Shown here one piece after another: positions 8,572 to 57,536 of a stretch of DNA of 62,750 bases. Location: NCBI GenBank assembly GCA_030753015.1, contig JASMDC010000019.1, forward strand, positions 1 through 62,750, in the 5' to 3' direction. The position numbers and the translations under genes are program-made. Position 1 is the first letter of the stretch. Each line of letters starts with the position of its first letter. The notes under the pieces were generated by a model. The model was given only the letters and a program-made list of their open reading frames with translations, searched no databases and had not been told where the DNA came from. The DNA is from Candidatus Undinarchaeales archaeon (GTDB taxonomy: Archaea; SpSt-1190; JASMDC01).

Positions 8572-8593
8572 ACTAAGAAACGGGTCTGTATGC

Positions 8594-8602
8594 AATAAAT
8601 AC
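8594..8602 (-). promoter_or_regulatory. TATA-like box of the Cys-rich gene
   Basis: TATTTATTG on the minus strand ends about 23 bases before ATG 8571. This is archaeal TATA spacing for a leaderless transcript and supports the chosen start. Confidence 0.55.
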
Positions 8603-8683
8603 CTTTCCCCCCAAGCGCTGCGAAACGGGGCTCACGCTTATAAGCATGGACGGCCACCGAGGTGCCCGGCTCCCTGCCCACGG

Positions 8684-9832
8684 ATGGTGACCATGGCCCC
8701 GATCCCGCCCACCTCGCCCCTGGTGCTCGTCCCGCTGCTGGCACTGGGCGCCATCACCTCCCTCACCGACATCAGGGAGGGCAAGATCAGGAACAAGCAC
8801 GTCTTCCCTTTCATCCTTCTGGGTATCCTCAGGATGCTCATCCTGGACACCCACGGTTACCTAGGCCTGCTGAACACGGGTATCGCCCTGGCCGCGGGAT
8901 TCGGGCTCTGGCACCTCAACCTCTGGAGCGCGGGCGACGCCAAGCTCTTCCTCGCCTTCGCTGCCCTCGTCCCTCTCAACGATCTGACCATGCAGTTCAA
9001 TCAGGTCTACTGGTTTCCCTCCTTCATGGTGCTGGTGAACACCTTCGTGCCGATGTTCGCGCTCATGCTCTTCCGACTGCTGTTCTTCACACCCCTGGCC
9101 ATGAAGACGATGCTCCTGCGACGCGTCCTCAAACCGGTCCAGGTGGTGAGCGTCGGGATGGCGCTCTTCGTGTTCATCTGGCTGGGCCGGGTGCTCATGG
9201 ACGCCCTCGGGCTCCCCCAGGTGTTCATCATCAACCTGCTCATCATGTTCGCCTGCATCGAGGTCATCGACCGGGTGGCACCGACGGGTGCGATGCCCGT
9301 GTACGCAGTCCTTTCGGTCGTCCGGCTCGCCGTGGACCCTGGTGTGTGGGAACCGGGCTTCATCGCCGCGTTCGGGACCCTCCTCATATCCTTCCTCCTG
9401 CTGCGCTACTTCGTCATCTACATGGGCCACCACTTCTACAGCACTCCCTGCGCTATCGACGAGCTCAAGCCCGGGATGATGCCCTCGGAAGGCATCGTCG
9501 AGAAGGACGGGAGGTACCACAAGGTGGAGCTCATCACCATCAACATCCTCTCTGCCATGCGCCTCAAGAAGCTCAAGCTGGCCTTCGAGATGCGGTCGAA
9601 GGGTCTCAACGAGGAGGAGGTCGAGCGCATCAAGAAGCTGGCAGAGGACGATAAGCTCCAGTTCGATGAGATCCTCGTCCAGCAGACCACGCCCTTCGCC
9701 CCCTTCATCTTCCTCGGCGCTCTCCTCACACTATATACCGGGGGCGATCCCGTGACCTACGTCAAGGTGGTCCATCCCGATCTCGTGCGCAGCATATTGC
9801 CAGCGGTCCTGGCACCCTACATCGGCCTCTAG
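8684..9832 (+). CDS. prepilin peptidase (A24 family) with C-terminal extension
   Basis: Start ATG 8684 (or 8693) lies about 40 bases after TTATAA (8639-8644). The 382-aa polytopic membrane protein carries the two aspartates of A24 peptidases: D in ITSLTDIREGKI, about residue 25, and D in WSAGDAKLF, about residue 87. It would cut archaeal class III signal peptides at the membrane's cytoplasmic side. Usual archaeal enzymes are 200-250 aa. Here a charged region of about 100 residues (AMRLKKLKLAFEM..., EEEVERIKKLAEDDK) and a final FAPFIFLGALLTLYTGG helix are added. The extension may be a regulatory or substrate-handling domain, which is an inference. Confidence 0.85.
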   Translation: MVTMAPIPPTSPLVLVPLLALGAITSLTDIREGKIRNKHVFPFILLGILRMLILDTHGYLGLLNTGIALAAGFGLWHLNLWSAGDAKLFLAFAALVPLNDLTMQFNQVYWFPSFMVLVNTFVPMFALMLFRLLFFTPLAMKTMLLRRVLKPVQVVSVGMALFVFIWLGRVLMDALGLPQVFIINLLIMFACIEVIDRVAPTGAMPVYAVLSVVRLAVDPGVWEPGFIAAFGTLLISFLLLRYFVIYMGHHFYSTPCAIDELKPGMMPSEGIVEKDGRYHKVELITINILSAMRLKKLKLAFEMRSKGLNEEEVERIKKLAEDDKLQFDEILVQQTTPFAPFIFLGALLTLYTGGDPVTYVKVVHPDLVRSILPAVLAPYIGL

Positions 9833-42189: not shown

Positions 42190-43824
42190 ATGCGGTCGCT
42201 GGGTGCCCTGTTGCTCGTCTTCCTTCTCCTCGCCATGGTGGAGGCCGCCGAGCCCGTTGTGAAGTACAGCGGGGCTTCCTTCGATGACAGCCTTTATACG
42301 GGAGAGACGAGCGTGATGCAGGTAAAGGTCACCTCCACTTACGACACCGGTAACGCGCCCAATGTTAACGTCATCCTGGACGCCGCCGAGTCCGGTGGCA
42401 AGCTCAAGCTCTACCGCATCACGTCGCGCGCTTTCACCAAGCGCACCATCCCCTGCTCGGACGCCGCGTACAACCGTCACGAGAACATGAACGTTGCGCT
42501 CACAAAGGGCGTCAACATGTTCCTCTACGCCATCCAGCCATGCGAGAACGTGTTGCCGGGCACCTATGCCCTGGAGTTCAAGGTGGACGGTACAGCCGTC
42601 GTGGAAGAGATAACGGCCAAGGTGCAGTCCCCTATACGGATCTCGGTATCGGCCGGCACCGTCAGGTTGGGCGCTGCTAAGACAATGACCGTCACTATCA
42701 TCAATCGCGGGAACGAGCTTCTGGAGAACGTAGCGATCGAGTTCGCAAGCCCGTTGCCCGGTAAGATCACCATCAAACCCACACGTATCCGGCTGGACGA
42801 GAACCTGCCCCTCAAGGCATCGACGAAGTTCGAGGTGACGGTGAACTCCACACTGGACACCCCTGCCATCGAGTATCCTCTGAACGTGTACGCGTCCTAC
42901 CGGACATTCGAGACCGTGACCACGGTGCGCGAGCCCATCCCGGACAAGGTCATCAAGGTGATCCAGGGTGACAATCCCAAGCTTGACCTGGCCGTACGGG
43001 ACCCGGCCGACATCAACGTGGAGGAGCCCAAGTTCGCCTCCGTTCTTGGTAAGGAGTTCTCCGTGGCGTTCCCCCTCAAGAACATCGGGAAGGGGCAAGC
43101 AGAGAAGTGCACTGTGGAGCTCACCATGCCCCACGGTGTGTTCGTACCCACCAACGTCTCCCGTCCGTACGAGTTCCGTGAGCTTGTCACCGAGGACATG
43201 CTCGTCATCGACATGGGGACACTGGAAGGGGGCGACGAGGGAGATGTCCAGGTCATCTTCCTACCCCTCCTGGTCGAGACCACTCCTCAGGGCACCACTG
43301 AGGTCGACGTCCTGGCCCGGTGCCTGAACATGGCAGAAAAGGAGATGAAGAGCAGGGGTATGACCCTGAAGGTCGGCCTCAAGTTCCCGGAGCCCGAGTT
43401 CGATCTGGGTGCGGACGTACCCGACACAGTGGTCGAGCCTGAGAGCTTCATCACCGCCAAGGTGGCCCTGAAGACACTGGAGTCCCAGAAGTGCACTCTC
43501 CGTGTGAAGTGGCCCATCTACCTCCATTACATGGACACGCTGGGCAGGTTCCAGTGGAGCGCCAATCCCGAGGTGAACGGGACCTACGAGAAGACGCTGC
43601 GGCTCAAGAGCTCCGCGGAGCACCGTTCGACCTCGGACCACGACATCCAAGTCACCGCCACCTGCAAGAACAGCCTTAATGTGACCGCGTCCCAGGAACG
43701 ACGGATCGCTCTACACTACGTCTCGCCCGGTGGACAGCAGGACCTGATCGTTTACGGTATCGTGGGGCTGGGCGCCGTACTGGTCGTGCTTATCGTGCTC
43801 TTCCAGCTAACCAAGAATAGCTAG
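42190..43824 (+). CDS. secreted membrane-anchored protein with CARDB-like domains
   Basis: A 544-aa protein with a signal peptide (LGALLLVFLLLAMVEAAEP). Several Ig-like beta domains carry NEW3/CARDB features (MTVTIINRGNELLENVAIEF, FSVAFPLKNIGKGQAEKCTVEL), and a single C-terminal membrane helix (YGIVGLGAVLVVLIVLFQL) is followed by a very short cytoplasmic end. It is an extracellular protein held in the membrane, of the kind involved in surface assembly or adhesion. TTTTTAATAT at 42159-42168 is its TATA-like box. Its 3' end overlaps the convergent prepilin peptidase gene by 18 bases. Confidence 0.83.
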   Translation: MRSLGALLLVFLLLAMVEAAEPVVKYSGASFDDSLYTGETSVMQVKVTSTYDTGNAPNVNVILDAAESGGKLKLYRITSRAFTKRTIPCSDAAYNRHENMNVALTKGVNMFLYAIQPCENVLPGTYALEFKVDGTAVVEEITAKVQSPIRISVSAGTVRLGAAKTMTVTIINRGNELLENVAIEFASPLPGKITIKPTRIRLDENLPLKASTKFEVTVNSTLDTPAIEYPLNVYASYRTFETVTTVREPIPDKVIKVIQGDNPKLDLAVRDPADINVEEPKFASVLGKEFSVAFPLKNIGKGQAEKCTVELTMPHGVFVPTNVSRPYEFRELVTEDMLVIDMGTLEGGDEGDVQVIFLPLLVETTPQGTTEVDVLARCLNMAEKEMKSRGMTLKVGLKFPEPEFDLGADVPDTVVEPESFITAKVALKTLESQKCTLRVKWPIYLHYMDTLGRFQWSANPEVNGTYEKTLRLKSSAEHRSTSDHDIQVTATCKNSLNVTASQERRIALHYVSPGGQQDLIVYGIVGLGAVLVVLIVLFQLTKNS

Positions 43825-44457
43825 GCGAAAGGGATCCCCGAGCAGCAGGTTCGCTAATACCGAAACGAGGAGGAACGGCGCCATCGGGATCCGCAGTTCC
43901 TGTCCCTCGAGCCTGAAGAGCATGAGCAGCGCCGTGGCAGCTGCGAAGAGCACCGGGACCAGAGCTGTCGTGACATCGCCGTGCAGGAGGAGGAATAGCG
44001 TCGCGCCGATGAGCATGCCCAGGGGCGCGTCTCGTCTGCGGAAGGCCGGTCGGTTTCCTTCGCGCACGACCTGCCAGACGTACCACGCCAGGCCGACGAC
44101 CTGGGCGAGTAGGACGGCGAGCACCAGCACTGCTACGGGGAAGGGGAGGATGGCAGGAAGACGGATCACTACACCGTCGTGGACGAAGCCCTGGACCCTA
44201 AGGGGCGAGAGTAGGCAGAGGGCGCACACCAGCTTCACATCAGCGCCCCCGATGCACCGGGCCCGGTACCACAGGAACACGAGACCGAGCATCAGGAGGT
44301 TTACGGAGAACTGGTCGGGATCATGTCCGATGATTAGATAGGCCACCGCGCCTATCGCTAGGAGCGCATCGGTGATGAGCGGGCGGACCTCGCCCGTGCG
44401 CAGGTCGTCGAGGGAGGCCGCGGCCAGGCCGGCCACGAGCGCGTACAGGCGCCACAC
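43807..44457 (-). CDS. prepilin peptidase (A24 family), last gene of the pilin operon
   Basis: A 216-aa membrane protein with the two catalytic aspartates of A24 peptidases: SLDDLRTGEVRP near residue 17 and CIGGADVKLV near residue 70 (GGAD in place of GxGD). About six to seven helices. It starts with GTG at 44457, next to the stop of the preceding large pilin. Its place at the end of a pilin-only operon suggests it processes these substrates specifically, unlike the longer peptidase at 8684. Confidence 0.87.
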   Translation of the reverse strand: MWRLYALVAGLAAASLDDLRTGEVRPLITDALLAIGAVAYLIIGHDPDQFSVNLLMLGLVFLWYRARCIGGADVKLVCALCLLSPLRVQGFVHDGVVIRLPAILPFPVAVLVLAVLLAQVVGLAWYVWQVVREGNRPAFRRRDAPLGMLIGATLFLLLHGDVTTALVPVLFAAATALLMLFRLEGQELRIPMAPFLLVSVLANLLLGDPFRLAILG

Positions 44458-44458
44458 G

Positions 44459-46708
44459 CTACTTCCACACCTCGAGGTTGAGCACGCCCGCGCCCCTACC
44501 GCCCCGGGGCGCTACGACTCGGTTGACTGACACCACACCGTACTTTGCCTGAGTGGACGGGATGCAGCCGAAGTCCGGGTTCTGACAGTTCGCCATCCCC
44601 TCGGGCTGCTCGCCCACCTCTTGAGCAGGATCTGGATCGGTCATGAAGGGCTCGGCTTGGTATTGTGGATCGTAGCAGAATGTCTCACAGCTCCCCTTAT
44701 CCTCGATACCGCGGACCACGCACACGGCCGGATCGACCTCCGGGTCCCACTCACCGCCGACATCCTCCCCCTCACAGAACGCCGGGTTCATCCCCACGGA
44801 CGTAACTGTGCACCGGCCACCCGGCCCTTCGCCGGGATCGTTCCACGCCCACGCGGTCGTAAGGTGCTCACATGCTTGGAGGGAATCGGCGGCGAGCAAA
44901 CACTCGTCGTTCACCCAGGAACCTCCGACGTCGGGATCGAGGCAGTCAACATCGTTCTCGATCTTCACGGCCACGCATCGCGGATCGGGCAGGTCCTCGG
45001 TCCATTCCGTGTTGCCCGCGGCCTCGCAGGTCTGCTCGTCAGAGATGAGCCAGATAAAACAGGCCGGATCGTTCCAGACGCCGTTGATACCCTCACACGT
45101 TGCCTGGTCAGGCGCTTCTGCGGGAAGTGTCCTGCAGTACTCGGTAGGGAGCCATTCGGCCTCAGCCAACGCGCCCTCGCACGTTGTCTGGTCGGGAACG
45201 GTCGGGAGGAGGCAATCGCCCCGCTCATCATCCCAGAACGTAAGGTACTGCCCGGGATCATCGCCCCAGAACGTGGCCTCCCCATCGAAGGTGGAAGTCG
45301 CCTCCAAGGCTACACCATACGTGCGAGTGGGCACGTCTCCGGTAAAAGTATCACTGTGCTGTATAGCGAACCGGCAGTTGTTGGTTTGCGTGAAGGTGCC
45401 CACGATAGTGGCGCCAGCGAAAGTCTCATCCCCCTGTCTGAAGGTGGTGTACGTGATGGTGGCGGTCACACCGCTAGCGTCCGACACGATCGTGATGGTC
45501 GGTTCCTCACCGGGATCGCATACATTCGGCGAATAGCAGATCGATGTTCCGGCCTGGCACGCGACCACGAGATCATGCTTGAACACAGGACGCCATGAAG
45601 GGGATCCGGGGGTCGCGGGATCCGTGTCGGCGTCGCCATCTGAAGCGACATAATAATCAATGAAGCTGACAAGGCTCCCGTCACACGCCGCCCCGACATG
45701 GACACGGAACCTCGACTCCACGATACCACAGTCGACCGTGTAGACCTCTGACGCACCGTCCATGGTCTGCTGGATAGTCCCCGCGGGGTGCTGTCCGGCC
45801 CCTACAGGGAACCCGCGGTTGGACGTCAGGTACGCATCGGCCGCTGCCCCGAGCGTACCGGAGGATATGTCGCTCTCATCGGGGATGATATCGAAGACGA
45901 CGGTCCCACTATCGTAGCTGTCCGGACAGTTCCCCGCTTTGCAGGCAACGATCGCCACTTGGAGATAGTCCCCGTTAGCATCGACTTTCAACTGGGTGAG
46001 ACCAACATCCCCTGGTGTGTAATCATCTGCCGTCGTCAAATGGAGACACATACCTCCGGGATTCTCCCGGTTGCATGTACCGGTCGAATGACCGGCCTCA
46101 TTGATCTGGAAGACCGCTGCGTTCCTGAGGATGATTCTTGTCAGTTCATTGTCTCCGTATAAGAAACTGCCGTCCATCTCGCGATACCCTGCGGATAAGA
46201 TGCGGCAGTTATTGGCATTTTCCGTCACCGGATCAGTGACAACGCACCGGGGTACTGACGGATCCTCGAACCACTGAGTGTCGACGGGTAACGTGATATC
46301 CCGGTCCACGCCCATGTCCTCGTCCTTGCATACATACATGCTCAGACGCCAGCCATAACCTAGGGAGCCTTCCGTGGTCATCAGAGGTGAGAAGAAGGTT
46401 GGCCCCACCAAGAAGGGATCTAATCCAGTTAGGGCCTCGTCGTCGATAACGTTCAGCCGGTCGATGCCCATCCCCTCGTCATAGTACGAGACACCGTACT
46501 GATAGCTGTTCGGTGAGGAGTCCACCATGGCGGTCATGAAGTCATCGGAGACCATCTTGAGGTCGTACACAGTCTCCCACTCGACCCGATCTTTATTCAC
46601 CTCGGTCTGTATCCGCTCCATGGCGGTGAAGAGAAGAACGAATATCCCTAGTGCGATGAGGATGTCGATGGAGAAGGTCTGCCCTCGTCGACGTCGTCCT
46701 AGCCTCAC
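44459..46708 (-). CDS. large pilin-like protein with Cys/Trp repeats (749 aa)
   Basis: The GTG at 46708 overlaps the stop of the gene before it (GTGA). The signal is RRRRGQTFSIDILIALGIFVLLF: a basic stretch, then a hydrophobic helix, with Asp one place after the usual Glu. The extracellular part has beta-rich domains with the motif C...GG.W....C recurring near residues 510-680 (for example CEGINGVWNDPAC). Cysteines are numerous. It probably forms part of a filament tip or a large surface complex and is anchored until cleaved by the peptidase encoded next to it. Confidence 0.85.
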   Translation of the reverse strand: MRLGRRRRGQTFSIDILIALGIFVLLFTAMERIQTEVNKDRVEWETVYDLKMVSDDFMTAMVDSSPNSYQYGVSYYDEGMGIDRLNVIDDEALTGLDPFLVGPTFFSPLMTTEGSLGYGWRLSMYVCKDEDMGVDRDITLPVDTQWFEDPSVPRCVVTDPVTENANNCRILSAGYREMDGSFLYGDNELTRIILRNAAVFQINEAGHSTGTCNRENPGGMCLHLTTADDYTPGDVGLTQLKVDANGDYLQVAIVACKAGNCPDSYDSGTVVFDIIPDESDISSGTLGAAADAYLTSNRGFPVGAGQHPAGTIQQTMDGASEVYTVDCGIVESRFRVHVGAACDGSLVSFIDYYVASDGDADTDPATPGSPSWRPVFKHDLVVACQAGTSICYSPNVCDPGEEPTITIVSDASGVTATITYTTFRQGDETFAGATIVGTFTQTNNCRFAIQHSDTFTGDVPTRTYGVALEATSTFDGEATFWGDDPGQYLTFWDDERGDCLLPTVPDQTTCEGALAEAEWLPTEYCRTLPAEAPDQATCEGINGVWNDPACFIWLISDEQTCEAAGNTEWTEDLPDPRCVAVKIENDVDCLDPDVGGSWVNDECLLAADSLQACEHLTTAWAWNDPGEGPGGRCTVTSVGMNPAFCEGEDVGGEWDPEVDPAVCVVRGIEDKGSCETFCYDPQYQAEPFMTDPDPAQEVGEQPEGMANCQNPDFGCIPSTQAKYGVVSVNRVVAPRGGRGAGVLNLEVWK

Positions 46709-47175
46709 GGTCCGCACCTCCAGTCCTGAGTATCGATGCACAGGTACATAGTCTTCCCATCGCACTCCATCCTGATAGAGCGCTCGTACACGATGGGATT
46801 CGATGACGGGCTGAACTGGAGCGGGGCATAGGCCTCGTAAGGACCGAAGTACTGCATCTTCGTGTCGTAGACCACGTGTACATAGAACCGCACCGGCCCG
46901 ATCTCCGCCTCCCTGAGGGAATAGGTGAACATGGACGCGTCGCAGGTAATCGTCTTGTTGAGGCGACCTACGGCGAAGTACGGATTCATGGCGGCGGCCA
47001 CCCGCTCAGCCTCGTCGACAGTTCGCTGCTTGAGGGTCTCCTCACGACGATCGTTCCGATGGCCCATGAACTGAGACGCTAGTGCGCTGATGACCACCAT
47101 GTAGATCGCCAGAATGGTCATGAGCTCCAGCGCCAGCTGGCCTCGGTCCGACCGGAGGTGATTTCCCCTACTCAT
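46705..47175 (-). CDS. archaeal pilin-like protein (156 aa)
   Basis: The ATG at 47175 overlaps the upstream stop by a few bases. Canonical class III signal: SDRGQLALELMTILAIYMVVISALASQF with Glu at +5. The short ectodomain (residues 45-156) has three cysteines near the C-terminus. Size and signal are those of ordinary archaeal pilins, so it may be a main or core minor subunit. Confidence 0.85.
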   Translation of the reverse strand: MSRGNHLRSDRGQLALELMTILAIYMVVISALASQFMGHRNDRREETLKQRTVDEAERVAAAMNPYFAVGRLNKTITCDASMFTYSLREAEIGPVRFYVHVVYDTKMQYFGPYEAYAPLQFSPSSNPIVYERSIRMECDGKTMYLCIDTQDWRCGP

Positions 47176-47710
47176 CCTCATCCTCCTTGGGGACGCCCCC
47201 TTCGGCGAACAGGCGCACGCGTCCGTGCCGGCACTGTATCTTGAGCTTGACCGAACCGCAGATGAGGTTACCACAGGTGACCTCAAGCCTGTAGCGCTCT
47301 TCAGGCTCGTCTTTCCACTCACCGATGGAGAATGTGCCGAAGTGTCGCCCGTTCACGTAAGCGGATCCTGTCGGTGGTGCCTGATCGAACTGGGAACGCG
47401 GGACCTCCACCTCGATACCCTGCACCGCACCGCTAGCGAATTCCTCTTCACGGTGACGGACGTTGATATGACGTGACCATGTGAAGACCTGGAGGTGCTC
47501 GGTGTTGTGCGATCCACCGTCACAAGCGTGTTCCAGTGCTAAAGCGAGCTTCTTTGCTATGATCTCCGCACGCTTCGCGGAGTTACGGTCGGCGAGCCGC
47601 TGATTCTCCATCTGGGCCGTGAACAGGAGCATCGCGAAAAGCATGAGCACTGCGGACATGAGCGCCAGTGTTTCTAGTGGCACCTGTCCCCGTTGTGCCC
47701 GAACCATCAT
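47168..47710 (-). CDS. archaeal pilin-like protein (180 aa)
   Basis: The ATG overlaps the stop of the giant pilin (ATGA). Class III signal: AQRGQVPLETLALMSAVLMLFAMLLF with Glu at +5. The ectodomain has a SYVNGRHFGTF-like beta strand set and a Cys pair (CGNLICGSVKLKIQC). Acidic tail. An ordinary-sized pilin. Confidence 0.85.
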   Translation of the reverse strand: MMVRAQRGQVPLETLALMSAVLMLFAMLLFTAQMENQRLADRNSAKRAEIIAKKLALALEHACDGGSHNTEHLQVFTWSRHINVRHREEEFASGAVQGIEVEVPRSQFDQAPPTGSAYVNGRHFGTFSIGEWKDEPEERYRLEVTCGNLICGSVKLKIQCRHGRVRLFAEGGVPKEDEDE

Positions 47711-50592
47711 GTCGCACCCCCCATGACCTTGTCCACGACGACCATACCTTCGCCCGCCTGCCCGGACGTTTCGGGAAGGATCTGACAGCTCACTCCGATG
47801 GTCCCAATCCCTTTGAACACGATGTCGAAGGGTTCGGTCCGAGTCGTGAAGGTGACAGGTACCACTGAATCGGCCAATGGATCGTAAGCAGCGAACCGCT
47901 TGAACCCCTGCTCGCGCCGCACTTCGACCAGCGAGTCCTGGCCCACATCGAGGTCAAGAATCTCGAAGATCTCCTCACCGATGTAGAACTCGATCTCGGA
48001 TGCCGTACCCCACTCGGTCTGTGGGAACTGGACGCCTTTCACGTCGTCGGGATTGATCGTGGCCTTGAAACGCGCCGTCCAGACATTCGTGATTCCGCCA
48101 TTTTCACATGTTACGTCGGTGAGCCTGGTGAGGATGTAGCAGAAACCTGCGCCACCATTGGCATCCTGGTCCCAGAAACCATCGGCCTTGGTGCACAGTC
48201 GCTCGCTGTTCAGTGAGGCGTAAACGCAGCGTAGAGGTAGAGGATCGTCCTGCCAGACCCCGTTGGCCGTGCAGGCCCAATTGGATCGGTCGCCCGTGAG
48301 CACGTCGGCGGGCGTCTTGCATGTGCCGTCATCGGACACGACGGTGAGCGCTTGATTGTCCTTGTTGACGAAGGTCGCTCGCCGGAGTTCCCGGGGACTG
48401 TTGAGCTGTTCGGCACCGAGCATAACCTGGCGCAGGACGGTGGTCACAGCAAGGATTGCGGTCTCGTCGTCGGCCAGATGGAACCGGAACGTCCCCAACC
48501 GCGGGAACACTACCTCGACCGTCTCGTCAGGATCGAGGTCAAGTGATACCTTCGGGCCCCACATGACGGCCTCGTCTTCCTCGATGACACACAGGTCCTG
48601 AGTGACCCTGAGGTTATCGATACAGCCCAGCTCGTCGTGCCAGTGATAGCCCCCGCCGTGAAGCCAAGTCCCACCGGCCGGTTCACACGCCACCTGTGCG
48701 AAATCGCAGCTATCGGTGAAGCTCGACCATGTCCCGGCGGCGTCATCGCACGTCGTTGGGGTGAGCACGCACCCGAGCAGTTCCTCCCACTTACCACCAA
48801 GGTCCTTGCAGGATTCCTCGATGAAGTTGCATGAGCCCGGGCCCACTTCGCACTCCTCCGGTGAGGCCACGTCGGCTAGGGTACAGGACTCGATAGGGAC
48901 GCCCAAGTCGGCCCGAGGTTCGTTCCACTCGCCATTGATGGTACAGAGGCTCTCTGCCGTGTCGACACCGTTCGAGCATCCTAGCTCCTCGGACACTATG
49001 GATACGGACACCGTGTCGGGATTCCTGAAGACGACAACTCCTTCCAGAGGGATAGATACCATGCCAGGATCGATCATCAGCGGATGGACCTCGACCTCGC
49101 GAGTGTCCACGAACACCTCAAGGATGTCATCGGGTACTACGTCGGGATCGCCCGCGATACGGAACCGGTGAACTCCCGAGCGGGTGAAGGTCACCGTGTC
49201 GCTGTCAAGACCGCACGTGAGCACATTCTCGTTCCACACGCCCCCCGCAGTCTGGCAGTCCTCGACGGTGAGAAAGGCAGCAAGGGTGGGGTTCTTGAGA
49301 ATGTAGATACGGTCGTATTTGGGAACCCAGCCCCCGTCATCGCGCTCGCATGCTTCACGGGAGACGGCTCGTTCGGCGATATGACAACCTGCACCGGCGA
49401 CCATATCGCCTCCATTGTCCGTGCAGAGATCGACCACATCACAGATGAATGTGCCAACGTCCCACGAACCAACTGTACCAATGAGTGCATTGCAGGCATC
49501 CTCGGTGCCGATGTCAGCGAAGAACACGCACAGGTCCACGCCATCGGCCCCTGCGCCAGGTCTGAACCGTCCTGCCCGGTCCCGAGTGAGCGCGGGATCA
49601 CCCGCCCTGCAACGGTCCTGGCTCACTGAACGAGAGGGCATGTTGCACACAGTCCCCTCGTCACCGAGGTCCACGATCTCCCCGCCCGCAGCCTCGCACG
49701 GAACTCGGACGTCGCACAGGGGCTCATCGCCTTCGATCCACTCCCCTCCCTCGGCATTGCACGACTCCTGCGTGGCGAGCCCGTCGTAGAACTCGCACAG
49801 GTTGCCAGCATCGTCCGCTTGCTGATACGTCCCCTGCAGTCCGCACATGATCTCGGTGTCGCCGTAGTCGCTGGAGCACCACCCGTTCGCGGACACGAGC
49901 CTGATGCCACAGGATCCGCTCCCCTCGTGCCAAGCACCACCCGCATCATGACATGCCACCGGTGTCATGTCGCAGCCACCAAGGTCATTGTTCCAGACAC
50001 CGCCCGCATTCCCGCAGCCGGTCATGGCGAGCTCGCAGGTCGTGTCGCCCTCGTTCCAGATACCGCTCGCAGCACGACACTCGTCCTCTGCGAGGGTGCA
50101 GACGTCGGGACCTCCAACCCAGGTACCGCCCGCGATCCGGCATGCACGCTCGGCGAGCTCGCAGATGCTGTCTGCACCATCCCACGTACCCCCGGCGCCA
50201 TCCTCGCATGCAGTCTCGGCGTCCAGGTCGGGGAAGCTGTCATGGTTCTCGATGATAATGCGGTCGTTCACGGTAAGATCCGTGATCCGTGCAGGCCATA
50301 ACCCTTCACGTAGCAACTGGACGTTCCGTATCCTTGATGTCGCGTGCACACGCGTGTAAGGCGCGGCAGGGACCTTCACCAAGGCCATGTCGGGGGTCGC
50401 TGGCTCGCACACGGTCTCGATCGCCGTGGCGAGCTCGAACCCCATGGCCCCCAGATGCTTCTCGTCAGCAAGTTGTTCGAACGATATGTACTTCAGCTGC
50501 GCTTGGTAGAGCACGTAGCCGAACATCATGAATATGGCCGTGGCAAGGACCATGAACTCGAGGGCCACCTGACCACGGAAGCGCCTTCTCAC
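47707..50592 (-). CDS. giant pilin-like protein with tandem Cys/Trp repeats (961 aa)
   Basis: GTG 50592 overlaps the previous stop (GTGA); a GTG nine bases upstream is possible. The class III signal is textbook (FRGQVALEFMVLATAIFMMFGYVLY, Glu at +5). After a short stalk come five tandem 21-residue units of the form C..AGG.W.....C, then more single copies of the motif between beta-rich domains (cupredoxin-like segments such as HRFRIAGDPDVVPDDILEVFV). Canonical pilins are under 200 aa, so this is about five times larger. It is likely a structural adhesin on a pilin-type anchor. Confidence 0.87.
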   Translation of the reverse strand: MRRRFRGQVALEFMVLATAIFMMFGYVLYQAQLKYISFEQLADEKHLGAMGFELATAIETVCEPATPDMALVKVPAAPYTRVHATSRIRNVQLLREGLWPARITDLTVNDRIIIENHDSFPDLDAETACEDGAGGTWDGADSICELAERACRIAGGTWVGGPDVCTLAEDECRAASGIWNEGDTTCELAMTGCGNAGGVWNNDLGGCDMTPVACHDAGGAWHEGSGSCGIRLVSANGWCSSDYGDTEIMCGLQGTYQQADDAGNLCEFYDGLATQESCNAEGGEWIEGDEPLCDVRVPCEAAGGEIVDLGDEGTVCNMPSRSVSQDRCRAGDPALTRDRAGRFRPGAGADGVDLCVFFADIGTEDACNALIGTVGSWDVGTFICDVVDLCTDNGGDMVAGAGCHIAERAVSREACERDDGGWVPKYDRIYILKNPTLAAFLTVEDCQTAGGVWNENVLTCGLDSDTVTFTRSGVHRFRIAGDPDVVPDDILEVFVDTREVEVHPLMIDPGMVSIPLEGVVVFRNPDTVSVSIVSEELGCSNGVDTAESLCTINGEWNEPRADLGVPIESCTLADVASPEECEVGPGSCNFIEESCKDLGGKWEELLGCVLTPTTCDDAAGTWSSFTDSCDFAQVACEPAGGTWLHGGGYHWHDELGCIDNLRVTQDLCVIEEDEAVMWGPKVSLDLDPDETVEVVFPRLGTFRFHLADDETAILAVTTVLRQVMLGAEQLNSPRELRRATFVNKDNQALTVVSDDGTCKTPADVLTGDRSNWACTANGVWQDDPLPLRCVYASLNSERLCTKADGFWDQDANGGAGFCYILTRLTDVTCENGGITNVWTARFKATINPDDVKGVQFPQTEWGTASEIEFYIGEEIFEILDLDVGQDSLVEVRREQGFKRFAAYDPLADSVVPVTFTTRTEPFDIVFKGIGTIGVSCQILPETSGQAGEGMVVVDKVMGGAT
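49894..50211 (-). repeat. five tandem 63-bp Cys/Trp repeats
   Basis: Residues 128-233 of the giant pilin read as five units of 20-21 residues with a shared C-x-x-(A/G)GG-x-W and a second Cys about seven residues later. The same module occurs singly or in pairs in the 44459 and 52283 pilins. Confidence 0.75.
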
Positions 50593-52295
50593 GGACAGCA
50601 CCTCTTACCGTTGCACGTGCGCATGGCATGCCTGATGAGCGGGTACACGCGCAGTACACGCAGGAAACATTCGTCGTCGACGGGACACCTTGTGAGTGTG
50701 TGATACCCGGCGTCGGTGTACGCATCGTCCGTGGCCCACTTATGCATGATTGTCGTGAAATTGTGGATGCCGCGCTGGTCCGGAAGGTCCTCAGCCAGTA
50801 TCTCCGCGAGAGATATTGTACTGCCGTCAGCCAGGTTGACCTGGTGGTAGTCCGTGGGGTAGAAATCGTTTGCTTCCATACGGCAGGCGATATTGTAGAA
50901 GGCCCATACGTCGAAATCAGCGAGATGATAATCGCATACGGTATCGCCCGATGACAGGTACTCATCTCCCACTCCCAGATGGACGGGGAGCTTCGTCACC
51001 ATGCTACCGTCCTCGCCAAGGAGCTCTATCTCTCCGTCGTACATGGTCGTGGGAAGCAGGCTGCTCAATCCGTTCTCCACGATTGTCTGGAACCTGCACC
51101 GGGAGCGCATAACGACGCCCTCTGCTGCTCCGAACGTATCAGGATCGTTGCCGTCTATCGCCAGTGAGTAAGCGCATGGATAGCATGTATCCACGGGATA
51201 CAGGTCGTCGTAATCGGTCTCACCGTGCGAGCACGCGCCGCATGGCGTGGCTTCCGCCTCCTCTGGCTCCTGAACCCCGCTGTAGAGACCGTACCAACTC
51301 TGTGGGTAGGTAAGGCCCGTGTCCTCGTCCACAGCAAAGAAACCCTCGATGAACTCATCATTTTCCGGATCAGTGTACCGCGAGCAGGTGTTGCTGATAT
51401 GGATTCCGAACGCCCGACGAAGGATGTCCCGCGGGTCCGGCGGTTCCGCACCTTCTTCGCCGCCTTCACCACCGCCTCCGCCGTCAATTTCACAGAACTC
51501 CTCGAAGGCGTGGCCCCGGGGGATACCGTAGGGCCCGAGGGTTAAATGGTCGCTGAGAATGCACATCCCAAGCTCTACCGCAGCGCAGAGCGACCGGGCA
51601 GGACCGCAGGCCTTCCCCGCCTCGCGTGCGTACGTTGCAAGTTTTGACATGTTCACCGCATAGTCGACGTTGACGTCCGGCAGCTCCATCTCGCAGCATC
51701 CTATGTTGTACCCCACTGGGGGTGCGTATGAGTTGTACTGTCCGATATCAATCTCTTCCAGGGTGAGCACTGGTTCGGGATCCCCCTCGACCTCAGGTGC
51801 AGGTTCGTCAGGATCGGCGGCGGGGGCGTTATCAGAGGGCTCGAACCGCAACCGTAGCCGGGGCATGCTCCTGAGCCGAGCGGCCACCTCACCCTTCCAG
51901 TCGTCGTCACCCGGACCATCGATCAACGGTGGGTATTGCTCGCGAGCAGCATCGACGATGGACTGGAAGTCATTGGGACAGTTCGTCCCGAGGTTCATGG
52001 TATCGTAACGATTGTTGAGCATGAGTGGCAGGTCCACGACGCTGTGGCCGAATAGCTCCCCGGGAACCCCGCTCCATGCACCAATAGCAGCGAATCCTCC
52101 ATCCACGACCCCTATCTCGAGAGCTGTCTTGTGATAACGAAGGAGATTGATAGCAGCGCGTTCCTCGAGGTCGATTGTGGCCCGTGCCGAGCGTGCCTGG
52201 TTGATCGTGGCCACTTCCAGCACTCCGTACGCGATGACGATGAAGATCGCCAGAGAGATGAATCCCTGCCGCTCGCGTCGGTCTACTCCCGCCAT
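50589..52295 (-). CDS. large pilin-like protein lacking the +5 acidic residue (568 aa)
   Basis: ATG 52295 overlaps the end of the previous gene by 13 bases. The N-terminal signal is RRERQGFISLAIFIVIAYGVLEV. It is prepilin-like but has no Glu or Asp in the first six places, recalling GspK/PilX-type minor pilins that initiate assembly. The ectodomain is large with many cysteines (GYNIGCCEMELP, CGPARSLCAAVELGMCIL, CNGKRCCP at the end) and a run of glycines near residue 280. Confidence 0.82.
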   Translation of the reverse strand: MAGVDRRERQGFISLAIFIVIAYGVLEVATINQARSARATIDLEERAAINLLRYHKTALEIGVVDGGFAAIGAWSGVPGELFGHSVVDLPLMLNNRYDTMNLGTNCPNDFQSIVDAAREQYPPLIDGPGDDDWKGEVAARLRSMPRLRLRFEPSDNAPAADPDEPAPEVEGDPEPVLTLEEIDIGQYNSYAPPVGYNIGCCEMELPDVNVDYAVNMSKLATYAREAGKACGPARSLCAAVELGMCILSDHLTLGPYGIPRGHAFEEFCEIDGGGGGEGGEEGAEPPDPRDILRRAFGIHISNTCSRYTDPENDEFIEGFFAVDEDTGLTYPQSWYGLYSGVQEPEEAEATPCGACSHGETDYDDLYPVDTCYPCAYSLAIDGNDPDTFGAAEGVVMRSRCRFQTIVENGLSSLLPTTMYDGEIELLGEDGSMVTKLPVHLGVGDEYLSSGDTVCDYHLADFDVWAFYNIACRMEANDFYPTDYHQVNLADGSTISLAEILAEDLPDQRGIHNFTTIMHKWATDDAYTDAGYHTLTRCPVDDECFLRVLRVYPLIRHAMRTCNGKRCCP

Positions 52296-53536
52296 ACGCA
52301 CACCTTCACCGTGACTACCTGCGGACAGGCCAGGGGCTGGACAAGCGGGGGATCTAGGTCATCACCGCAACTGTTCCGGCCCAGGTTGAGCCCACACAGG
52401 GTCACCTCGCGCTCCACGCAATACACGGTCCGCGGAGGTGGATCCGTGGGGATGTGACAGGGGCAGAAGAATCCAAAGGGATTGTCGCAGTCGTTACTGG
52501 GATCGTCATCGTACCGACTGTTGTCGAAGCATCGTCGGAACTTAATGAATCGGGCCGGATCGTCATCGGCCACTATATCCGGTAAGTCGGGCACGACAGA
52601 TATAATCCTATTCGCTGCTCCCGCGATGCCCTCTGCTCCTTCCAGCGCCTCCCTTACAGTGCGCGCTGCATAGGTCCGGGGTGTAGGCGGATTCGCCTCG
52701 GGAGGATCCTTCTCGGGGGGGAAAACCTTGGGGAAAAGCTTCGGAATCAACCGATCAAGCTCGCGGTCCTCGGCCATCTGGTCGGCCGTCGCCAGTTCAG
52801 GATTAGTCGCGAAGAAGTTGATACCATAAGTGCTCACGTACCTGACCGTGGGATCCTCGGCGTCCTCGTTGATCCTCTGGGCGAACCGACCGAGGCCTGG
52901 CGGGTCCATGCGCCATTCACCATCATCTACTACAGTGCAATCCTCTGCGGTCGTCACATCCGCTCGTACACACTCACCGACACCACCGTCCCAGGTCCCA
53001 CCGGCCGTCGTGCAGTCCGGATCATTGTCGATAGTGGTCACAACGCACCGTGGATTAGGATCCTCTACCTCCACGATTTCCCGTTTTGCGTATTCGGTAA
53101 GATAGATACGGTACGCGCCTGCGAGCTCGTTATCGATATCCCCCGCGTCGATAGCTACACGATTGGCCTCGTACCACGCAGCATAGCTCATTCCACCCGC
53201 TCCGTCGTCCACCGCTCCCGGTAATAATCCCAAAAGCCACGGGTCCTCGTACTGTATGAAGAACCGGTACACGGGGTACATCCCGGCGATGGTCTCCAGA
53301 CCCATGCTTCCGCAGCTGCGCTCGGGCGGGAACGCGAAGGGGCAGCTCTGGACATGCTCGGCCGACTGGCTGCACGCGTTGATGATGTCATGGGCCAGAC
53401 GCTGGGCATTGAGCGCCTCTGCGTTGGGATAAGGGAAGTGGTGGACGGCCACCGATGAGAGGATGAGCACCGACAGCGTCATGGTGAGGAGGGCGTCCAT
53501 GGTGAAGATGAAGCCCGCCCGCTCACGTCGCTCCAT
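52283..53536 (-). CDS. large pilin-like protein (417 aa)
   Basis: ATG 53536 lies three bases after the stop of the secreted Cys-rich gene. Signal RRERAGFIFTMDALLTMTLSVLILSS, with the acidic residue as Asp and displaced. The ectodomain includes one Cys/Trp repeat pair (CTTAGGTWDGGVGEC, DDGEWRMD), then a Pro-rich linker and a terminal set of cysteines (CPCHIP, CGLNLGRNSC). Confidence 0.82.
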   Translation of the reverse strand: MERRERAGFIFTMDALLTMTLSVLILSSVAVHHFPYPNAEALNAQRLAHDIINACSQSAEHVQSCPFAFPPERSCGSMGLETIAGMYPVYRFFIQYEDPWLLGLLPGAVDDGAGGMSYAAWYEANRVAIDAGDIDNELAGAYRIYLTEYAKREIVEVEDPNPRCVVTTIDNDPDCTTAGGTWDGGVGECVRADVTTAEDCTVVDDGEWRMDPPGLGRFAQRINEDAEDPTVRYVSTYGINFFATNPELATADQMAEDRELDRLIPKLFPKVFPPEKDPPEANPPTPRTYAARTVREALEGAEGIAGAANRIISVVPDLPDIVADDDPARFIKFRRCFDNSRYDDDPSNDCDNPFGFFCPCHIPTDPPPRTVYCVEREVTLCGLNLGRNSCGDDLDPPLVQPLACPQVVTVKVCVWRE

Positions 53537-53538
53537 GT

Positions 53539-56500
53539 TCACTCTTCCTCCTCTCCTTCCTCTTCGGGGAGAGGTACGATCAAAGCGCTGTCCAGTTCCT
53601 CCAGTGTGGGCACCGGGTCCACCGGTACGAGGCAGGAGGTGAACCCGATGGAGTTGAAGAAGTTGTTGCACAGCGAAGTGGATATGGGCTCGCGGACGGT
53701 GCAGTACTGTACCATGTTCTCCCGCATGGAGATCGCCAGGTCCGCCAGCGGTGCAAAGCTGTTCTCTTCGCCCTCGTACGAGCACTCGAGCTCTGCCGGC
53801 GTCATAGGTGGGTAGAGAGCACGAAGGAGGTAGTTATCCTGATCGAGACCACACTGGGCGAGGTTCTCTGTGATCTCGCACTGGTCGTCCTCATCAGGTG
53901 CCGGGTAGGTGATAAGGTCGTCGAAGAACACGTCCAGGTCGCGTCCGAGACAGACGTTCTCCTCGCAGTCGCCGTGGCCGGGCAGGGTAGCGAACGTGGC
54001 GCACTCCTTAACGTCGTCGCATTCGCTCCCGGCCCGTTTCCCGAGGGCGCACCAGTGCGTGTGGACGCCACCGACGGGATCGGGTTCTTCGGGATTCAGG
54101 CAATAGTAGGGCGTGGGGAATGATCCGTCGTTGATGGCGGTCGCGTACTGGTCGGCCAGCCATTCACAGCAGTCCACGTCGCTGTTACAGCAGGGGAGGG
54201 GCGCTGGTTGGACCAAGTGCGCAGCGCAGATCGCGGCTTCGTCACAGTCAGCAGCTGGAAGGAACAGGGCATGAGTACATCCCTGTTCACAATTATCCGC
54301 GAGATCGTCAAGGTCCTGGCACTGTGTGAATTCGCACGTGTCACCAGGGCAATCAGGATCGAAGCAGTCTGTCGCCACACAGTTGGCGTTCGGATCGTCC
54401 AGGTCGTCTGTGAGACTGAACACGCGGCAGAACTTGCAGTGGTCCGTCTCCATGTCCGGGCAGCACATCCCCAGGTCGAGGTCGATGCACATCCCGGATC
54501 CCTCGCACAGATGCGTCCGGTTCCCCTCGTCCCCCCACCGCTCAGCAAGTTCCTGCTGGAACGGACTGTCGTCTATTGCGTCTGGTGCCCAGGGATCGTT
54601 CATCGGATCGGGCGCCAGGGCGTTCATCTCGTCAGAATAAGGAGCGCGAATGACATAGGGTATATCCATCTCTAGGCACGTGTAAACACGGGGAAGTTCG
54701 TCCTCATCGGTTCCAAGTATCGTCCGCGTCACCACATCCAGGCTCTCAAGGGATTCCGGAGCGCAACATTGGCCGTCCTCGCCCGGAAGCCCGGCATCGA
54801 TCTCCTCGGCAATGAGCGTAGCCTTGAGATTTGCGTAGTACGACTCTTTCTGAGCCCGGTAAGTCGAGTTCAGTATGTCCCCCCCGGCGTTAGCTAGGGT
54901 TTGGAGGGTAACATCCTCGAACTCCTGGGGATGGACGCATGAATACCACTGTCCGCCCATGCAGTAGTGGTCGCGGTAGTCACTGTCAGCGTTCCAACCG
55001 ACACCGAACACGTCCTCAAGGTTCTGGGTGAGCGCCGGATCCGGGAGGCACATGGGCAGCGGATCGCCGAACCACTCCACACCGTAGGCGAATCCAGTGC
55101 AGGTATCCTCGGTCACGATGAGGGGGACCACGCAGTGTAGAAAGCCCGCGTCCCACTGGCCGTTGTAGGGTGCGCTCTCGCAGGTCTCCCGGTCCCACTC
55201 CGCCTCCTCGTCTTCGGCCACGATACAACGGGGATCGGGATCCGCGCACGTGAACTGGAGCAGGCGGAGATGGTCGGGATCGGTATAGGCGTCCAGAGTG
55301 CTGTTCCATGAGCAGCGGGAGAAGTCCTTGCACCCCACATCGTACCTCTCGCATGTCGCAGTATGAGCACCTGCATCGTAATTGCATCGCTGGACGCGCC
55401 ACTGGCTGTTCCCTTCCGCGTCAACGTGGCACCGGTCGCAGTTCTTGCTAAAGGTGTCCGTGTCAGCCGCGTCAAGCATTACGCGACAATCATCGAGGTC
55501 GTCGGGATCATTGTCAGGATCGTTACAGGCATAATGCCATTGAGCGTCCTCCAAACACTCCTCCGTGACCTCTATTTCTCCGGGGGGTGGGAGGGGTTCG
55601 TCCGAGCACACCACGGCACCGTTGCCCATATCAACATCACACCGGGCGTCTCTGGCCACGCCGCTTGTAGAGCAGTACTTGCACGTGATACCGTCCGGGT
55701 TCGGATCATCACCATCGGGCTCGATACACGCATCCTCGATGGGCGGTGCGCCGGGAGGCGGCCCGAGGGTCAGCGGATCGCCGGACTCGACATAGTAGCA
55801 CTGGATCGGTAGCACATCTTCGGTCGGCAGGGGATCGCAGGTTATGGGATCGAGGAGATCTCCGTACACGGCGGGCATCACGCACCGACGCGTCTCGCCG
55901 ATAGCGAATCGGGCGTTGTCGACATCGTTGATGCAGCGCGAGCACTGTACGGTCCCGCCCTCCTGTGAACCGCACTGGAACGTCCTCTCCCCATCGGCGA
56001 GGACGGGGAGGCAGTCGTCCTCCTCATTGGATTCGTCACACTCCGCCAGACCATCCACTCGAGAACAGCCCGAGGTCACGATACTGCCGTCACTCTCGCA
56101 GAATTTACAATCGATGTCATCGAGGTTCTCTGCATCACATGCGGCTTCCAGCGGAGCGTTCCCCGAGTAGCACGAGTCGGTGGACTGCTGGCACTTGTGC
56201 AGGTTGCCGTTGCACCGTACCTGCTGCGCCACGACCCCTTCGTCGACAAGACACTTGTCACAGTACACAATATTGTTCTCAGCGTCCACCTGACAGGGAT
56301 TCTCGTTGGGATTGCAGTCCTTCTGCAGTTCCCCGACCGCCAAGAAGGCCCTGCCGGTGACATCCGATATCAGACATGTATCAGCCATCAGCTTGCCAGT
56401 CAGGTCGCAGTAGAAGCACAGCCTCTTGTCCTCGTCCCCGCCGCTGCAGGCCACCGCTGCGGTAACGGGACCGGTGTAGTACGGGACCTCCGTCTCGATG

Positions 56501-56901
56501 CACCCACTGCCTCCGGCCAATTTGTCCATCACGTCACACCTGCGCTGCTGGACAGCGCCGGTATCCAGGCATGCCTCCTCGCAGTAGGCGCTCCCCGTGC
56601 CCGAGTCCCGCTTGCACGATTCTGCGAAACCGCAGTCGGTCGCCACGGGCGGTGAACAGGTGCAGGTGCCATCGCCCTCGTTGATGACGCAATCCCATTC
56701 ATTGAGGACGGCGTCAAGTGTACATCCAGCGCAGCTGAAGGGAGGACCTGTGTCGTAGTCGCAGGTGACAGGATTACTATCGACCAGCTGGATAGTGTTC
56801 CCCGGTCCAAGAACGCATGCAGCGCTGACCGGTGTGAAGAGAATCAGAAATAGTAGAAGGAGGGTGATGACTGGCGAATCTCGCACGCCATCACCCTTCA
56901 T
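53539..56901 (-). CDS. secreted 1120-aa cysteine-rich protein of the pilin operon
   Basis: ATG 56901 is chosen as 13 bases after the preceding stop; the open frame extends further upstream but would overlap that gene. It has a Sec signal peptide (SPVITLLLLFLILFTPVSA) rather than a pilin signal, and no membrane helix at the end. Cysteines occur throughout, in modules such as CKFCESDGS, CRCINDV and CCNSDVDCC, with many Asp-rich, Pro-rich loops. The C-terminus is a run of glutamates. By size and position among minor pilins it recalls bacterial PilY1 (tip adhesin), but no sequence relation is seen. Confidence 0.83.
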   Translation of the reverse strand: MKGDGVRDSPVITLLLLFLILFTPVSAACVLGPGNTIQLVDSNPVTCDYDTGPPFSCAGCTLDAVLNEWDCVINEGDGTCTCSPPVATDCGFAESCKRDSGTGSAYCEEACLDTGAVQQRRCDVMDKLAGGSGCIETEVPYYTGPVTAAVACSGGDEDKRLCFYCDLTGKLMADTCLISDVTGRAFLAVGELQKDCNPNENPCQVDAENNIVYCDKCLVDEGVVAQQVRCNGNLHKCQQSTDSCYSGNAPLEAACDAENLDDIDCKFCESDGSIVTSGCSRVDGLAECDESNEEDDCLPVLADGERTFQCGSQEGGTVQCSRCINDVDNARFAIGETRRCVMPAVYGDLLDPITCDPLPTEDVLPIQCYYVESGDPLTLGPPPGAPPIEDACIEPDGDDPNPDGITCKYCSTSGVARDARCDVDMGNGAVVCSDEPLPPPGEIEVTEECLEDAQWHYACNDPDNDPDDLDDCRVMLDAADTDTFSKNCDRCHVDAEGNSQWRVQRCNYDAGAHTATCERYDVGCKDFSRCSWNSTLDAYTDPDHLRLLQFTCADPDPRCIVAEDEEAEWDRETCESAPYNGQWDAGFLHCVVPLIVTEDTCTGFAYGVEWFGDPLPMCLPDPALTQNLEDVFGVGWNADSDYRDHYCMGGQWYSCVHPQEFEDVTLQTLANAGGDILNSTYRAQKESYYANLKATLIAEEIDAGLPGEDGQCCAPESLESLDVVTRTILGTDEDELPRVYTCLEMDIPYVIRAPYSDEMNALAPDPMNDPWAPDAIDDSPFQQELAERWGDEGNRTHLCEGSGMCIDLDLGMCCPDMETDHCKFCRVFSLTDDLDDPNANCVATDCFDPDCPGDTCEFTQCQDLDDLADNCEQGCTHALFLPAADCDEAAICAAHLVQPAPLPCCNSDVDCCEWLADQYATAINDGSFPTPYYCLNPEEPDPVGGVHTHWCALGKRAGSECDDVKECATFATLPGHGDCEENVCLGRDLDVFFDDLITYPAPDEDDQCEITENLAQCGLDQDNYLLRALYPPMTPAELECSYEGEENSFAPLADLAISMRENMVQYCTVREPISTSLCNNFFNSIGFTSCLVPVDPVPTLEELDSALIVPLPEEEGEEEE

Positions 56902-56914
56902 ACCTGCGGCCCGT

Positions 56915-57505
56915 TTAACACGACGGCATACGCTGAGCGGCAGCGTTACCCATGATGATGTTCGGCCTGCCTCCCGTGTAGTCGAAGGAGATATACAACG
57001 TGGTACACTGGGGACCCATAGTGCCGCCGGCGTCAAAAGCGTGGCACTCTCCGTCCTGGAGGTTAGTGTAGTCGTCGGCAATGTTATCCGGCTCCGTCTG
57101 GGTCTGGATCTGGAATCCCAGAGTCTCGGCACCATCGGTAGCTATCTTACCGGCCATGCCGTTGGGCGGGTCACCGCCACCCTGGTCGAACAGGTCATCG
57201 TCGCATGATGTAGGCATAGGGATCGTGAAGCATGTGAAATCCCTGCCCAGGCCCTTGCCGCGTGCCACACATTGTCTTATGGCCCTATCGATGTCGTCCG
57301 CGCACCCGAAGGCCGGGTCCACTGCGTACTGCTCGGACTGGGGCAGCGAACGGAGACAGAGCCACCGCTTCATCTGGAACGCGACGAAGGCCGCGATCGC
57401 CAGACCCGCCGTGGCGATGATTAGATATTCGAGCGGGATGGCACCGCGCTCATCGCTGGCCATCCTCCTGAGAAGCATCTTCTTGCTCAGCTTGTACTTT
57501 CTCAT
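56915..57505 (-). CDS. archaeal pilin-like protein, first gene of the operon (196 aa)
   Basis: The ATG at 57505 is about 22 bases from GATAAAAAGC (57527-57536), so the operon mRNA is probably leaderless. Class III signal: SDERGAIPLEYLIIATAGLAIAAFVAF with Glu at +5 (Ala at +1 instead of Gln). The ectodomain has six to seven cysteines (CLRSL, CADDIDRAIRQC, CHAFDAGG). Ordinary pilin size. Confidence 0.86.
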   Translation of the reverse strand: MRKYKLSKKMLLRRMASDERGAIPLEYLIIATAGLAIAAFVAFQMKRWLCLRSLPQSEQYAVDPAFGCADDIDRAIRQCVARGKGLGRDFTCFTIPMPTSCDDDLFDQGGGDPPNGMAGKIATDGAETLGFQIQTQTEPDNIADDYTNLQDGECHAFDAGGTMGPQCTTLYISFDYTGGRPNIIMGNAAAQRMPSC

Positions 57506-57526
57506 ACTATTATGGAGACACGTATG

Positions 57527-57536
57527 CTTTTTATCT
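57527..57536 (-). promoter_or_regulatory. TATA-like box of the pilin operon
   Basis: GATAAAAAGC on the minus strand, ending 22 bases before the first ATG. No other promoter-like gap is seen in the following 13.7 kb, because the genes overlap or nearly touch. The 57537-57720 stretch between this box and the CBS gene shows no gene or clear RNA structure. Confidence 0.5.

Follow-up and report, generated by a model that had tools for sequence, protein, structure and literature searches.

The gene cluster on the minus strand

The window analysed here, a stretch of 62,750 nucleotides, is contig C28 of an archaeal genome of 3.85 Mb (98.9% complete, 5% contamination), versus 0.6–1.1 Mb in the nine other genomes of the same class that we compared. 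As the alanyl-tRNA synthetase is closest to homologues from Woesearchaeota, Nanoarchaeota, and Aenigmatarchaeota (51–60% identity), we consider the organism a DPANN-type archaeon. Between positions 43,807 and 57,505, the minus strand carries nine ORFs (g1–g9; Table 1), and we confirmed both the coordinates and the composition given in an earlier note on this DNA, that is, nine packed genes including seven for prepilin-like proteins, one for a Sec-secreted protein (g2), and one for an A24 peptidase (g9). Adjacent genes share a few bases at their junctions or lie at most 13 bp apart, Shine–Dalgarno-like sequences were found at several of the gene starts, and the GC content by codon position is coding-like in 9 out of 9 ORFs (GC3 0.68–0.79 versus GC2 0.41–0.48). 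The AT-rich element upstream of g1 would fit a leaderless archaeal promoter. For g4, an alternative ATG start at position 52,295 is possible.

The seven prepilin-type N-termini (g1 and g3–g8) share the same layout, with a short basic stretch, a glycine, and a hydrophobic helix, and thus several class III-type prepilins, seven genes in total, lie within one predicted operon. AlphaFold2 models of two of them, both of low confidence, placed a single helix at residues 11–61 followed by strands in g6 (mean pLDDT 45.7), and a helix at residues 8–60 in g4 (mean pLDDT 35.6).

Table 1. Genes and sequence features of the operon and its surroundings; positions are those of the window.
Feature	Position	Strand	Length (aa)	Cys	Description
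Candidate TATA-like AT-rich element	57526..57535	-			GATAAAAAGC; about 30 bases upstream of the g1 start; read by eye
g1	56915..57505	-	196	8	Class III-type prepilin (ERG|AIPLEY); first gene of the operon
g2	53539..56901	-	1120	92	Protein with Sec-type signal; one Cys module
Cys module, g2	55120..55197	-			E 1.1e-7
g3	52283..53542	-	419	16	C-family minor pilin (AGFIFTMDALL); C-terminus VKVCVWRE
Cys module, g3	52955..53032	-			E 7.7e-8
g4	50589..52301	-	570	20	Prepilin without acidic +5/+6 residue (QGFISLAIFIV)
g5	47707..50592	-	961	46	A1/A2-type minor pilin of class III (RGQVALEF)
Tandem array of five Cys modules, g5	49894..50223	-			C-x2/3-AGG-x-W-x6-C; E 1.7e-9 to 6.2e-6
Scattered Cys modules, g5	48664–48822, 49201–49272, 49705–49776 (span 48664..49776)	-			Genome-wide module search
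g6	47168..47710	-	179/180	4	A2-family minor pilin (RGQVPLET)
g7	46705..47175	-	156	4	A1/A2-type minor pilin (RGQLALEL)
g8	44459..46708	-	749	30	B-family minor pilin (RGQTFSIDIL); C-terminus VLNLEVWK
Three Cys modules, g8	44708–44791, 44885–44959, 45044–45112 (span 44708..45112)	-			Genome-wide module search
g9	43807..44457	-	216		A24 prepilin peptidase; both aspartate motifs (LDDLRTGE, GGADVK)
Further A24 gene	8738..9055				

Assignment of the pilins to archaeal families

Inspection of the surroundings of A24 genes in relatives from the same class revealed a reference operon. In one of these genomes (G002), four prepilin genes precede a small winged-helix-like gene, a gene for an ATPase, and two TadC genes. 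Matches to these four pilins were present in 168 out of 394 archaeal genomes, and the canonical gene order, established from twenty loci (L085–L104), is A1-A2-B-C-D. Families A1 and A2 comprise short pilins of class III (GQxxxEF/EY; median lengths 143 and 136 aa), whereas the N-terminus of family B reads GQxFxxDF (167 aa), that of C GFxFTLDA (676 aa), and that of D GFxY, with no acid (406 aa). The acidic residue is a Glu at +5 in the short class III pilins and an Asp at +6 in B and C; altogether, an early acidic residue in the hydrophobic segment was present in 70 of the 71 A1, A2, B, and C members and absent from 19 of the 21 D members. VWA domains were found in 6 of the 20 C members, other members of this family carry CBM96 or DUF2341, and DUF2341 was also detected in one D member (E 3e-14). 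PilY-like tip proteins of archaeal pili from clade 1 are reported to contain DUF2341 (Makarova et al, 2016), and the canonical set includes DUF2341-bearing pilins of the type attributed to this clade. This domain is absent from all nine products of the window, despite its presence in the related C and D pilins.

To place the pilins of the window, we used N-terminal profiles of the five families, which in a leave-one-lineage-out test called 89 out of 91 known members correctly. As controls, we scored 62 further proteins encoded in this genome that have a hydrophobic segment at the N-terminus, of which the best reached 16.8 (A2), 12.1 (B), 9.6 (C), and 12.9 bits (D). Judged by these comparisons, g3, g8, and g6 are clear members of families C, B, and A2, respectively: g3 scored 22.8 bits with C (runner-up 4.1; hhalign 94%), g8 28.9 bits with B versus 26.2 with C (hhalign 95 and 89%), and g6 31.2 bits with A2 (hhalign 95.6%). 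Both g7 (19.4 bits with A1 and 18.2 with A2; hhalign 86% for A1) and g5 (about 16–19 bits with A1/A2; hhalign 93.6% for A1 and 86.0% for A2) appear to be of the A1/A2 type; g5 shares 33% identity with g6 over residues 1–63. In the case of g1, the assignment is tentative because it gave a weak score with the A1 profile (7.5–10.8 bits). Except for g3, the scores lie at or below those of the weakest known family members, and hence we consider these pilins very diverged.

Since scores obtained with C-terminal profiles were too weak, we turned to a simple C-terminal pattern with background counts. A strand of the form hydrophobic-x-hydrophobic-Trp ends 15 of the 18 B and 16 of the 20 C members but none of the 54 A1, A2, and D members, with a background of 0/206 in the genome studied here and 2/372 elsewhere. 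Within the operon, it is confined to g3 and g8. As the pattern was defined post hoc, after g8 and family B had been seen, we evaluated it on hold-out loci, where it was found in 4/4 B, 9/10 C, 0/12 D, and 0/6 A members.

The remaining pilin, g4, is the only one in the operon without an early acidic residue, and it directly follows the C-type g3, as D follows C in the canonical order. No significant match of g4 to family D was obtained with the D profile or hhalign, and a search of the whole genome with this profile did not reveal a second D gene. We take g4 as the putative D counterpart because of its position after g3 and its missing acid.

The operon proteins have no convincing relatives in the 394 archaeal genomes, and searches with g2 and the other products, covering 61 to 394 genomes, yielded no homologue. 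The single additional match, at a locus of genome G105 (L027), extended across two joined query proteins, yet its target was a prepilin of a related type. Besides g9, no product of the operon had an above-cut-off match in Pfam or NCBIfam, and the large exposed domains matched nothing in Pfam, NCBIfam, or PDB sequences. By eye, a cupredoxin-like core is possible in g5. The lack of close relatives and of database matches for the large products would be in line with an unrelated, undescribed surface system that is pilin-like in its signal peptides only. However, this is very improbable in view of the family-specific N-terminal matches, the C-terminal signatures in precisely the two proteins expected to have them (g3 and g8), and the acid-less pilin immediately after the C pilin.

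The claim of the earlier note that the proteins do not resemble known archaeal pilins beyond the signal is not supported, since the pilins fall into the families of a widespread archaeal operon. When we checked whether the gene set is conserved, as the note had suggested, the result was mixed: the giant version was not found in the 394 genomes, whereas the underlying pilin set is the one present in 168 of them, with the genes of the window arranged as C-D-A-A-A-B instead of the canonical order. Describing the pilins as giant is justified for g5 (961 aa versus medians of 143 and 136 for A1 and A2) and g8 (749 aa versus 167 for B), the only two of unusual size, but not for g3 and g4, since large size is the norm among pilins of the C and D types and g3 is even shorter than the C median.

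Cysteines and a module shared with the secreted protein

Another feature of the operon is its cysteine content, which amounts to 2.2–4.8% in the pilins and 8.2% in g2, versus family medians of 0–0.75% in the canonical pilins. Part of these cysteines belong to a module, C-x3-GG-x-W-x6-C (also written C-x2/3-(A)GG-x-W-x6-C), that is present in g2, g3, g5, and g8; g5 holds most of the copies (about ten, five of them in tandem), and the module region of g3 shares 36% identity with g2 and g8 across 61 aa. In a search of the 3.85-Mb genome, these four proteins were the only ones to match (E down to 1.7e-9) and the best other match had an E of 0.25; as the four match by construction, the informative part of this result is the absence of the module elsewhere in the genome. 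Among the 394 genomes, four others contained weak matches (five in total), and the three matches that we inspected lie in proteins with one such motif each. At the DNA level, the repeats between modules are so diverged that they do not point to a recent spread of the module.

Because they have the operon and the Cys module in common, we link g2 to the pilins, and the shared module is the best evidence that g2 may belong to the pilin structure. The number of cysteines is even in all eight exported proteins of the operon. We considered this parity as a sign of full pairing but dropped it because the count is also even in 21 of the 29 other exported proteins of the genome. As to disulfide formation, one protein encoded on contig C63 is anchored in the membrane and has two DsbA-like domains, and no match to VKOR was found in the genome. 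The modules of g2, g3, g5, and g8 might even form disulfides between subunits, resulting in a covalently cross-linked tip adhesin. This we consider quite unlikely; to our knowledge, no organism has a type IV pilus whose tip is stapled covalently.

As a precedent for archaeal pilus parts stabilised by disulfides, although in a different lineage, almost all components of the type IV pili of Thermoproteales have multiple conserved cysteines (PMC4858521). We have seen no Cys module common to pilins and a secreted partner described for them (PMC4858521).

Peptidase, assembly machinery, and the proposed pilus tip

The product of g9 scored 28.2 bits with the Pfam A24 model (cut-off 26.5) and contains about six hydrophobic segments. 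It does not have the 9-TM form of EppA (arCOG02300) and is closer to the short PibD/FlaK form, with an NCBIfam FlaK match far below the cut-off. Other A24 genes are located on contigs C42 and C117 and elsewhere in the window (Table 1). The one on C42 encodes a general peptidase similar to the enzymes of class relatives; g9 is distinct from it, short, and has its nearest relative in the genome not there but in the 214-aa protein on C117 (34% identity over 82 aa).

We did not detect T2SSE or T2SSF matches on the contig of the window, in agreement with the earlier note, which had found no ATPase or platform gene nearby and had concluded that they must be provided from elsewhere. Indeed, there are six T2SSE and seven T2SSF matches in the rest of the genome, with T2SSE on contigs C63, C55, C75, and C40 and pairs of T2SSF on C63 and C75. 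Thus, the genome does encode a secretion ATPase together with a TadC platform: C63 carries two prepilins, an ATPase, and two TadC genes, and C75 an ATPase and TadC. The ATPases of C63 and C55 are of the PilB3 type. None of the ATPases of the genome groups with those found beside canonical A1-D operons, and therefore, provided that the assembly lacks no such gene, the operon has to rely on a motor from another clade. Which one this may be is a guess. We regard an ATPase of the canonical clade as an accessory and not a defining feature of such operons, because exchange of pilin sets between ATPases has been documented in archaea.

The distance to any ATPase or platform gene and the position of the genome's ATPases outside the canonical partner clade could also mean that the proteins form a disulfide-rich surface coat, anchored in the membrane by the N-terminal helix and forming no filament, for which large Cys-rich ectodomains would be well suited. 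We regard this as distinctly improbable, as between three and five of the proteins match families of filament-forming pilins, two of these at the N- and the C-terminus alike, and the operon encodes a prepilin peptidase; moreover, neither signal cleavage nor the acid at +5/+6 is needed for ordinary anchors.

Instead, we propose with a probability of about 0.72 that the operon encodes minor pilins of an archaeal type IV pilus along with a dedicated prepilin peptidase and a secreted partner, which together would build a disulfide-rigid adhesive tip. The prepilins would be cut after the glycine by g9 or by the general peptidase on C42. By likeness to bacterial tip complexes of minor pilins, the acid-less g4 would cap a priming complex made of g3 (C), g8 (B), and the class III pilins g5, g6, and g7, in which g3 and g8 would adjoin g4 and g5–g7 would complete the assembly; g1 would be a further pilin, possibly the most abundant (major) one. 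An ATPase and a TadC platform encoded elsewhere would push this complex outward, so that it would end at the tip. There, the exposed domains of g3, g5, and g8 together with g2, all with the common disulfide module, would form a rigid adhesive surface, onto which g2 may dock through its similar module. That the pilins are swollen with a Cys-rich module also found in secreted g2 suggests that the tip is probably a disulfide-hardened adhesive complex.

This proposal draws on bacteria, where the core minor pilins join into a complex at the tip, with a subunit that lacks Glu5 as its cap; assembly begins from this complex, and minor pilins often bear grafted adhesive domains (PMC10191384). The operon resembles the PilHIJK and PilC/PilY1 components of bacterial T4aP (PMC10191384) in having an acid-less candidate cap and a large secreted non-pilin. 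Unlike PilC/PilY1, g2 has no Pfam or PDB match, PilY1-type domains included, and no detectable similarity to PilY1, so that homology is unsupported. The PilY1-like secreted cap proposed in the earlier note is a putative role for g2. For archaea, a tip position of the minor pilins is what we would expect by analogy; Makarova et al draw them close to the base.

Alternatively, the same prepilins could build a short T2SS-like pseudopilus that exports or releases g2, with no long adhesive pilus. In favour of this, g2 is the only secreted non-pilin product of the operon and has its Cys module in common with the pilins, and bacterial T2SS pseudopili likewise comprise one large acid-less pilin and several small ones. 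We nevertheless consider it unlikely, since C and D pilins of related operons bear adhesin-like domains (VWA, CBM96, and DUF2341), archaea have no outer membrane to cross, and archaeal type IV pilin systems, as far as we know, serve to make filaments.

Among archaeal systems, the adhesive pilus that we favour has its closest published parallel in EppA-EpdABC of Methanococcus maripaludis (PMC3875500), a clade 1 archaeal T4P (PMC4858521), in which minor pilins and a dedicated prepilin peptidase share one operon while the ATPase, two platform genes, and the major pilin lie apart. The interpretation as a minor-pilin operon with its own peptidase, already put forward in the earlier note, is supported, but the suggestion that the surface system is undescribed is not, given this example (PMC3875500). 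The differences from M. maripaludis are that g9 is small (216 aa) and not of EppA size, that the pilins of the window are larger and Cys-rich, and that no DUF2341 protein was found among the nine products. With the canonical operon, the operon of the window shares class III pilins with a +5 Glu, B and C pilins with a +6 Asp and a C-terminal Trp strand, and an acid-less pilin after C; it departs from it in gene order, in the enlarged A- and B-type members, in the cysteine content of 2–5%, and in having no ATPase of the canonical clade. Hence, minor pilins with their own peptidase and a distant ATPase and platform were already known, as were disulfide-rich pilus components, whereas the novelty lies in how strongly cysteine is enriched, in the large size of the A- and B-type pilins, and in an operon-private module common to pilins and a secreted protein.

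If correct, the proposed assignment means that in archaea the exposed portions of minor pilins can be strongly remodelled while the filament-forming ends remain recognisable, and the N-terminal motif, the missing acid, and the C-terminal Trp strand could serve as sequence rules for finding highly diverged minor pilins. It also makes for a testable proposal, namely that in archaea, as in bacteria, pilus assembly begins at a tip complex with an acid-less pilin as its cap; in the published archaeal model, minor pilins are located near the base. DPANN archaea are known for host contact, and in a DPANN-type archaeon the pilus tip would be a likely contact surface.

Pilin enlargement and secretion ATPases

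Class III pilins of the A2 type, a short minor-pilin family in the canonical archaeal operon, reach about 840 aa at two loci from another archaeal family (Table), and the enlargement of A2-type pilins therefore arose more than once.

In two secretion ATPases of the window's own genome (G000), encoded on contigs C40 and C75, the T2SSE domain is preceded by fused N-terminal 4Fe-4S ferredoxin domains. For some pilus ATPases of archaea, Cys-rich N-termini have been described as possible disulfide domains (PMC4858521); those of the C40 and C75 proteins look like iron-sulfur domains. A further T2SSE locus, on C26, also encodes a GQ-type prepilin (640 aa) and a protein of 954 aa with 26-28 Cys. On C63, a protein with DsbA/Thioredoxin_4 domains is encoded about 4 kb ahead of the first PilB3-type pilus gene.

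Other genes in the window and genome size

Outside the operon, a secreted protein of the window contains 176 Cys (14.6%); they lie in tandemly repeated units, each about 60 aa long, which are unlike the operon's Cys module, and the protein carries a membrane helix at its C-terminal end.

G000 has 3.85 Mb, compared with 0.6-1.1 Mb in the other examined genomes of the same class, and is very large among DPANN-type archaea; its contamination estimate is 5%.

Table. Coordinates of pilus-related and Cys-rich features
Feature	Position	Contig	Strand
Ferredoxin-T2SSE fusion ATPase	L015:11524-13938	G000:C40	
Ferredoxin-T2SSE fusion ATPase	L019:9863-11830	G000:C75	
T2SSE protein, 954-aa protein and prepilin	L020:9566-18691	G000:C26	
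Membrane-anchored protein, 761 aa, two DsbA/Thioredoxin_4 domains	L017:4403-6688	G000:C63	
Enlarged A2-type class III pilin	L094:4675-7215		
Enlarged A2-type class III pilin	L095:12135-14657		
Further GQ-type prepilin, 598 aa, at start of window	134-1930	window	+
Secreted Cys-rich protein, 1209 aa	4966-8595	window	-
Second A24-like peptidase, adjoining the 1209-aa Cys-rich gene	8450-9832	window	+
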